A program made the translations under genes and the position numbers. From Blautia parvula (GTDB lineage Bacteria > Bacillota > Clostridia > Lachnospirales > Lachnospiraceae): a DNA stretch of 64,000 nt. How positions within the stretch are numbered: the first letter of the stretch is position 1; each line of letters starts with the position of its first letter. Below, piece after piece: positions 8,068-63,605 of this stretch. The stretch covers positions 3,132,001 through 3,196,000 of the forward strand of contig NZ_CP084061.1 in NCBI RefSeq assembly GCF_020215665.1. The letters are read 5' to 3'. The notes beneath the pieces were generated by a model. It made no database searches and was not told the origin of the DNA. It saw only the letters and a list, made by a program, of their open reading frames with translations.

Positions 8068-8189
8068 GTAACAATTCCCGGAAGACGAACGGCTGCGTAC
8101 ATGCCCATTAAAAACCGCTTCGCACTGGGCCGGATGGCTGCCGACACCGGTTCAGCGCTGTGAATGTGCAGACCTGCCTGAACCGTTAT
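8068..8189 (+). mobile_element. Decayed copy of the 134-bp miniature element
   Basis: It begins GTAACAATTC and ends near GAACCGTTAT. Between these it keeps the family blocks CCCATTAAAAACCGCTTCGC and TGTGCAGACCTG in the same order as the intact copy at 43101-43234. The first hairpin and parts of the middle are lost, and no clear target duplication remains. The right 38 bases overlap the 3' end of the exporter gene at 8152-9954 and encode its last 12 residues and stop. Confidence 0.7.
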
Positions 8190-15364: not shown

Positions 15365-15498
15365 GTAACTGTTCAGTGCCCTCACAATCACGAGCAAAAA
15401 TCCATGCAGAATCGCCTGTGGCGATGGGATTTTTGCCTGACTGCGGAACGTTTTCTTACGGTCATCGCAGTAAATGTGCAGACCTGCTGAATCGTTAC
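15365..15498 (+). mobile_element. Full-length diverged copy of the 134-bp miniature element
   Basis: Exactly 134 bp. It starts GTAACTGTTCAG and ends CTGAATCGTTAC. The family block GCAGTAAATGTGCAGACCTG lies near the right end, as in the intact copy. The central hairpin (GCAAAAATCC, then ATCGC/GCGAT, then GGATTTTTGC; 15394-15436) differs in sequence from the intact copies but pairs fully. Flanks are CTTCCTTC and TTCCTTTC, an imperfect target duplication. It lies between dppF and the GH172 gene, inside the presumed operon. Confidence 0.8.
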
Positions 15499-43054: not shown

Positions 43055-43093
43055 ATACCGTATGGCGGCAGTATCTCTGCAGCCATACGGTAT
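43055..43093 (-). terminator. Terminator of the GH31-LacI operon
   Basis: ATACCGTATGGC (43055-43066) pairs perfectly with GCCATACGGTAT (43082-43093). On the minus strand it is followed by a T-rich tail. It is separated from the LacI stop by the inserted 134-bp element. Confidence 0.85.
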
Positions 43094-43100
43094 ATTATTT

Positions 43101-43234
43101 GTAACGATTCAGCCAGCTGAATCGTTACGGGTATTCGCCCATTAAAAATCGCTTCGCGATGGGGCGAATACTTGCCGCCACTACTCTTTTGCACGGTCAG
43201 CGCAGTAAATGCGCAGACCTGACAGAACAGTTAC
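43101..43234 (+). mobile_element. Intact 134-bp miniature element with 8-bp target duplication
   Basis: The ends are GTAACGATTC and GAACAGTTAC (imperfect terminal inverted repeats, 8 of 10). Both sides carry a perfect TATTATTT (43093-43100 and 43235-43242). Inside are three hairpins: 43101-43128 (13-bp stem, 2-base loop), 43131-43171 (GTATTCGCCC, ATCGC/GCGAT, GGGCGAATAC) and 43200-43214 (GCGCA/TGCGC). It has no coding capacity. The inverted copy at 63292-63425 differs at three positions. It lies between the LacI stop codon and that operon's terminator. Confidence 0.9.
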
Positions 43235-43249
43235 TATTATTTTACTTTC

Positions 43250-63237: not shown

Positions 63238-63291
63238 CCTGTTTCAGTCCACACCCGTAATTTCACAGAGTGCGGCATAGCTTATATTGCT

Positions 63292-63425
63292 GTAACTGTT
63301 CAGTCAGATCTGCGCATTTACTGCGCTGACCGTGCAAAAGAGTAGTGGCGGCAGGTATTCGCCCCATCGCGAAGCGATTTTTAATGGGCGAATACCCGTA
63401 ACGATTCAGCTGGCTGAATCGTTAC
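63292..63425 (-). mobile_element. Intact inverted copy of the 134-bp miniature element
   Basis: The reverse complement matches 43101-43234 at 131 of 134 positions with no gaps. Both sides carry a perfect ATATTGCT (63284-63291 and 63426-63433), different from the duplication at the other copy. The three hairpins are conserved. The right duplication overlaps the stop codon of the DUF4250 gene (63432-63434), so the insertion spared the protein. Confidence 0.92.
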
Positions 63426-63431
63426 ATATTG

Positions 63432-63605
63432 CTAAATAAACTGATTTACATTTTCATCATAGGCGTAATCAATAGCGCCCAGCTTTTTCTCCAGTTCTTT
63501 TCTGTCAAGCTGCAAATCTTCGCACATGTCATCCAGAGAGGAATAGAAATCCCTCAGCTTCATGTTTGCAAAGCTTAAAAGCATCACCGGATCTTTTGGT
63601 ATCAT
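63432..63605 (-). CDS. DUF4250 small protein
   Basis: 57 residues from ATG at 63603-63605, with GAGGTG nine bases upstream. The core DPVMLLSFANMKLRDFYSSLDDMCEDLQLDRKELEKKLGAIDYAYDENVNQF is the DUF4250 signature. It is common in Clostridia and has no known function. It follows clpB by 15 bp, so the two are cotranscribed. Confidence 0.9.
   Translation of the reverse strand: MIPKDPVMLLSFANMKLRDFYSSLDDMCEDLQLDRKELEKKLGAIDYAYDENVNQFI

Follow-up and report, generated by a model that had tools for sequence, protein, structure and literature searches.

The 64-kb window (the whole stretch of Blautia parvula DNA analysed, 64,000 nucleotides) contains two almost identical 134-bp sequences, which raises the question of whether they are mobile insertions or a chance repetition and, if mobile, of what moves them. 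Copy 1 lies at positions 43101 to 43234 of the plus strand and copy 2 at positions 63292 to 63425 of the minus strand. Both are full length (134 bp) according to sequence comparison and family match, and they differ at three bases (positions 72, 118, and 124). Comparison of the flanks placed copy 1 between exact 8-bp duplications, TATTATTT, at 43093 to 43100 and 43235 to 43242, and copy 2 between exact duplications of a different octamer, ATATTGCT, at 63284 to 63291 and 63426 to 63433. The ends, GTAACGATTC and GTAACTGTTC, begin with GTAAC and form imperfect inverted repeats that match at 8 of 10 bases. The coordinates, the number of differences, the two exact duplications, and the imperfectly repeated GTAAC ends had been claimed for the pair by a sequence-only reading of the window and were confirmed here, as was its description of a noncoding MITE, 134 bp being too short for a transposase. 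A family search of the window added two plus-strand copies to that pair: copy 3 (15365 to 15498; 134 bp; 120.7 bits), which belongs to the GCAAAAATCC-arm subfamily and whose flanking octamers, CTTCCTTC and TTCCTTTC, agree at 5 of 8 positions without gaps, consistent with a 1-base slip, and copy 4 (8068 to 8189; 37 bits, E 1.7e-5), which is decayed.

The 134-mer matched the closed host genome (6.25 Mb) at 53 places; the best 20 of these matches cover nearly the whole element and have identities of 93 to 100%. Among these best 20 copies, the 8-bp duplication was exact in 12 and conserved at 7 of 8 positions in 5, that is, 17 were duplicated at 7 of 8 positions or better. L020 showed an exact octamer duplication after a 1-base shift, L014 showed no duplication, and L019:1501-1774 consisted of two copies in tandem (274 bp) with an octamer between them and the same octamer outside. 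The end motif GTAACNRTTCAG occurred 59 + 64 times in this genome, compared with 2 + 2 times for a reversed control.

To look for empty sites, the joined flanks with a single target copy were used as queries against six genomes of the same genus for 17 of these 20 copies (L014, L019, and L020 were left out). A junction-spanning match was found in G008 or G009 for 15 of the 17 queries (70 to 94% identity, gapped), and none was found among the six genomes for L004 and L006. The exact single target octamer was present in G008 in five cases (L002, L007, L009, L010 [beside a gap], and L013); in the remaining 10 spanning matches it was altered or gapped, with 7 of 8 bases retained for L017 and L018. 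The empty-site case is weaker for the window's own two copies than for the others: for copy 1 (L001), the spanning match has 76% identity and its target is blurred, and for copy 2 (L006), the same-genus genomes rendered no clean empty site. The copy number and the duplications in the host genome mean that the repeats and their duplications are not due to chance, and together with the empty sites they bear out the independent recent transposition previously proposed. The element thus shows terminal inverted repeats, a duplication of fixed length, empty sites, and multiple copies without a transposase gene, and it is confirmed as a real, recently mobile, gene-less transposable element. Strains might be told apart by its young copies, namely those that have exact duplications and empty sites.

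A search of one-per-species genome contigs with the 26-mer at the right of the element found at least 103 matching stretches; among the matches listed, most were titled Lachnospiraceae (80 titles), and the named genera presumably all belong to this family. Clostridium fessum is among the species that carry copies. A covariance model built from 23 representatives detected the element in 57 of 299 Lachnospiraceae genomes spanning 298 genera, and relatives of similar fold are present in dozens of genera. In a class sample of 291 genomes, Lachnospiraceae included, it detected 4, all of them Lachnospiraceae (the host genome plus three weak matches in one genus), and no match outside Lachnospiraceae; both searches used stricter filters that miss weak matches. 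Outside the host genome, once 21 hits without both ends and the duplicates had been dropped, there were 83 elements with both ends, 50 with an exact duplication and 20 with a duplication at 7 of 8 positions. These levels (70 of 83 at 7 of 8 or better) compare with 0.26% for shuffled flank pairs. Lengths were mostly 132 to 136 bp. Among 118 elements selected by allowing each end up to 3 mismatches, GTAACNRTTCAG was exact at the left end in 91 and at the right end in 85. When the flanks were joined, 26 of the 116 elements with enough flanking sequence fell within a predicted ORF; elements between two genes showed mixed orientations, and the gene context was mixed as well. Plasmids gave no match to the element, phages gave partial matches in five records, and exact-pattern scans of viral contigs gave no hits. 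Two minor observations concern individual loci. Comparison of L183 with L105 suggests that one element copy was interrupted by another short insertion. Five contigs of G318 (L237 to L241) start within a family copy, some 40 bases from its end, which indicates that draft assemblies break at the element.

RUP, ERIC, and Correia are bacterial MITEs that are likewise short, dispersed, mostly intergenic, and folded; at the time of a 2007 review, a driver had been proposed for RUP only, and most such MITEs were described as having TA termini (PMC2229807). The element differs from them in its GTAAC ends, its 8-bp duplications, and its occurrence only in Lachnospiraceae in the samples searched. Searches of the open-licence literature (including PMC10969869, PMC2229807, PMC12898284, and PMC8024623) revealed no description of the family, and subscription journals or ISfinder may contain one. 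The Lachnospiraceae thus gain their own counterpart of ERIC or RUP, a MITE family that occurs in 57 of the 299 genomes sampled and lacks a match in Rfam.

As for the enzyme, the earlier reading had noted that the window carries no IS66 transposase, which holds, and had proposed a driver of the IS66 type. Canonical IS66 elements have three genes. In the same genus they are 2.7 to 2.8 kb long and are flanked by 8-bp duplications in 16 of 17 copies, and an IS66 domain match was obtained in 15 of 20 genomes of the host genus. Mobilization of the element by these elements of about 2.7 kb would account for its GTAA start and its 8-bp duplication, which are the only features that they share with it. 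However, their ends consist of GTAANCGC or GTAANCGT followed by A-rich sequence instead of GTAACNRTTCAG; the canonical end reads GTAANCGY and differs beyond the GTAA, and the element shows neither GTAANCGY ends nor the A-rich sequence expected of a canonical IS66 derivative. Moreover, no end within 1 mismatch of GTAACNGTTCAG was found in 57 or in 17 further IS66 loci, and the host genome contains relics only, PF03050 matching just two C-terminal IS66 pieces of 26 to 27 profile positions. Canonical IS66 elements were rejected as the driver because of their end sequence, and we regard their involvement as extremely improbable. The proposal thus stands at the level of the IS66 family and fails for the same-genus elements of about 2.7 kb.

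The distribution of the IS66 domain was only weakly associated with that of the element: it was present in 27 of 57 family-positive and 79 of 242 family-negative genomes (P = 0.045, uncorrected). It was missing from 8 of 17 high-copy genomes, absences that are soft for drafts because the short G318 contigs examined were all longer than 4 kb and short contigs seem to be missing. As a side observation, L378:1250-2599 is a GTAAACGC-ended segment (about 1.35 kb) that encloses the C-terminal part of a transposase and may be a deletion derivative of a canonical IS66 element.

Low-scoring IS66-like ORFs in other Lachnospiraceae genomes led to a second type of element. The first scans of IS66 loci accepted only GTAAC or GTAANCGC ends, and the GTTAC-ended elements of this second, ISBst12 type emerged from an unrestricted end scan. 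Thus, L384 is a 2,358-bp element with the duplication GCCGGAAT and the ends GTTACTGTTCA, and L387 is a 1,984-bp element with the duplication GTATTAGA and the ends GTTACAGTTCA. The proteins of L384 and L386 matched DDE_Tnp_IS66 at 90.5 and 82.6 bits, respectively, and fell just below the NCBIfam IS66 cutoff (162 versus 180). Eight of nine ISBst12-type elements from Lachnospiraceae start with GTTAC; the other one, L391, has a GTAAC end and no duplication. Its plasmid relative ISGst1 is 1,613 bp long, with one annotated ORF, the ends GTAACTATTCAGCCAC and GTAACTATTCACCCCA, and an exact octamer duplication, and a second Geobacillus plasmid carries a near-identical element at another exact octamer. 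Two further single-ORF elements, L401 (ends GTAACTATTCAGCACC and GTAACTATTCAGAACC) and L402 (ends GTAACTATTCAGTCGC and GTAACTGTTCAGTCGG), are also flanked by exact 8-bp duplications. L401 to L404 begin with GTAACTATTCAG, and the other end of L402 is GTAACTGTTCAG; many family copies have these same 12-base ends. For its part, ISDge4, a one-ORF member of the ISBst12 group, has the ends GTGACTACTCAGCA and GTAACTGCTCAGCA and the 8-bp repeat CCTCGATG, according to a 2026 paper (PMC12898284). The elements from L384 to L404 probably belong to this group, an assignment based on their likeness to ISDge4 and on the label of ISGst1 and not on ISBst12 itself.

Elements of this kind also occurred in plasmids and in viral contigs or phage records. 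Inverted ends flanked by exact octamers were observed in 7 of 8 plasmid loci and in 7 of 11 loci from viral contigs or phage records, and the ends varied across these loci (e.g., GTAACTACTTAG, GTAACTGCTCAG, and GTAATTACTCAC). The profile scan of viral contigs rendered 14 loci, single-protein scans of the viral contigs found no relative, and one phage record contained a relative of L384 in which no end pair was found. Among 60 distinct IS66-like ORFs, a GTAANCGY end was present in 29 and a MITE-type end in 15, never both for the same ORF, and the other 16 were left unresolved, a count that is descriptive and not blind since the end patterns were widened after L396 to L398 and one matching end suffices. 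In a tree of 39 rows, all 12 proteins with MITE-type ends that were included and one from the unresolved class formed a cluster of 13 rows, split from the other 26 with support of 100/100; this tree left out ORFs of less than 400 amino acids and included a total of 14 of the 29 ORFs with a GTAANCGY end (15 were left out), and long branches were flagged.

In summary of the ends, the element and several members of the ISBst12 group, to which ISBst12, ISGst1, and ISDge4 belong, have in common GTAAC[TA][AG]TTCAG-type ends and 8-bp duplications. In contrast, the group members carry a transposase ORF (approximately 440 to 590 amino acids in those examined), whereas the element has no such ORF and less than one-tenth of their length. 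Their interiors were also unlike its interior by eye: comparison of seven complete elements with the family revealed no likeness beyond the end repeat, except that ISGst1 and L404 have a small hairpin at the left end.

No complete member of the group was found in the closed host genome, where the two C-terminal pieces mentioned above were the only PF03050 matches. Similarly, the pairs of motif ends in the host genome (100 of the 123 motif places) and, among those listed, in G009, G264, and G318 enclosed no complete element with these ends. A scan of 1.56 Mb of loci for a complete element revealed short elements only, besides a few long end pairs with 3 mismatches at one end, which were taken for chance. 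Such absences, in the host genome, in G009, and in the scanned loci, the chance-like long pairs aside, would be expected if a stand-alone, domesticated transposase gene without ends of its own moved the element. RAYT genes act in such a way on REP elements, and the REP and REPIN sequences associated with RAYT are palindromic extragenic repeats with conserved hairpins, two features that the element shares. However, 8-bp duplications are the rule for the element, and to our knowledge REPs lack such target duplications; the duplications and the end identity point instead to the ISBst12 group and thus to an element of the DDE kind. No candidate for a stand-alone gene came to light in searches short of genome-wide scope, and we consider such a gene very unlikely.

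Very probably, then, the element is a nonautonomous mini-transposon of about 130 bp that is moved in trans by a transposase from the single-ORF branch of IS66, the ISBst12 group. Since the host genome yielded no transposase of this type, its movement is best explained by a lost or transient element that acts in trans, and we infer both that this enzyme does the moving and that it came and went. Supplied by a complete element that lies elsewhere or has since disappeared, the transposase would recognize the GTAACNRTTCAG ends and insert the element, through a staggered cut of 8 bp, into DNA that is rich in A+T and mostly intergenic, and repair of this cut would yield the 8-bp duplication. An orphan-looking repeat would thereby be tied to a little-studied branch of transposases.

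The layout of the element, common to the representatives, consists of three hairpins (left, middle, and right) followed by the right end repeat. In copy 1, the left hairpin (43101 to 43128, plus strand; fold and pair changes) is formed by the end repeat GTAACGATTCAG and its directly adjoining inverted copy CTGAATCGTTAC, an arrangement that gives a palindrome of 27 to 31 bp in the family. The middle hairpin (43129 to 43173, plus strand; fold and pair changes) contains an inner ATCGC-TTC-GCGAT stem and a 7-base ATTAAAA bulge. The right hairpin, GGTCAGCGCAGTAAATGCGCAGACC (43195 to 43219, plus strand; fold), is followed by the right end repeat at 43223 to 43234 (end comparison), which reads GTAACTGTTCTG on the minus strand and GTAACTGTTCAG in most copies. 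L090 and L093 have a different middle layout. Two 211-bp variants in G318 (L242:845-1055 and L251:6421-6631) apparently have a second middle hairpin.

The arms of the middle hairpin vary between subfamilies and yet stay complementary. RNAalifold analysis of 23 sequences rendered 27 consensus pairs, 16 of them with two-sided changes; the right hairpin was nearly invariant in this set, which had mostly been picked by exact match to that hairpin. At least 9 of 10 middle-arm bases were paired in 102 of 118 elements with duplications at 6 of 8 positions or better, versus 0.46% of shuffled segments. When arms of different subfamilies were paired with each other, 8 of 10 was not reached in any of 1,490 combinations. 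A threshold of 7 of 10 was dropped because 35% of the shuffles reach it. Pairing of the middle arms is thus retained while their sequence turns over, and for this reason the family lends itself to testing, in a natural setting, why the interior of some bacterial MITEs stays folded.

The fold is kept by compensatory change, either through selection on the folded strand or through correction of the palindrome in replication. The two-sided changes, the paired arms, and the failure of arms from different subfamilies to pair are what would be expected if the interior were a functional RNA kept by selection, for example, a transcription terminator or an mRNA stability element. In agreement with this, an inner stem followed by a run of T's scores as terminator-like on the minus strand at 43148 to 43168, and the A-rich stretch that gives this run recurs in many subfamilies. 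However, the tolerance of wobble that marks RNA was sought in the element arms and not found, G-T mispairs being no more frequent than A-C mispairs (9 versus 13 and, in a second count, 5 versus 6), and thus nothing marks the conserved fold as RNA. The mixed gene context and orientation also argue against this explanation, as do the results with Rfam 15, in which no family exceeded the gathering score in 10 element loci and the only matches around copy 1 fell below it. A functional RNA is therefore a doubtful explanation, although one to be kept in mind.

Template switching during replication can correct palindromes, and it could maintain the complementarity of the arms without any function. 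Such correction would leave the sequence free to change as long as the arms match and would give no wobble bias, as observed, but it does not by itself require the layout (hairpins, A-rich bulge, and a length of mostly 132 to 136 bp) that recurs over many genera. We therefore propose palindrome correction only tentatively. In a broader reading, which we consider unlikely, the family would be a regulatory module that is both mobile and folded, borne by a transposase and spread through the intergenic regions of Lachnospiraceae under selection on its fold over many genera, and its palindromic end could remain behind as a mark of 27 to 31 bp. As part of this unlikely reading, the module would act as a structure-conserved nucleic acid, for example, as a terminator on the minus strand or a stabilizer of transcript ends.

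Finally, shorter insertions were present among all the loci collected, in which 19 elements of 27 to 82 bp carried duplications at 7 of 8 positions or better (a count made without a shuffle control). Thirteen of them, from several genomes, were bare hairpins of 27 to 31 bp, 10 with an exact octamer; such palindromes (e.g., L218:687-714, L220:674-702, L235:828-854, and L358:195-223) are strikingly short for insertions of a transposon-like kind. Because the right end repeats the inner arm of the left hairpin in direct orientation, a deletion between the two, presumably by recombination, would yield a solo hairpin with its duplications intact. At L234:798, a 15-base remnant, GTAACTGTTCAGTAC, lies between two CTAATTTC octamers.
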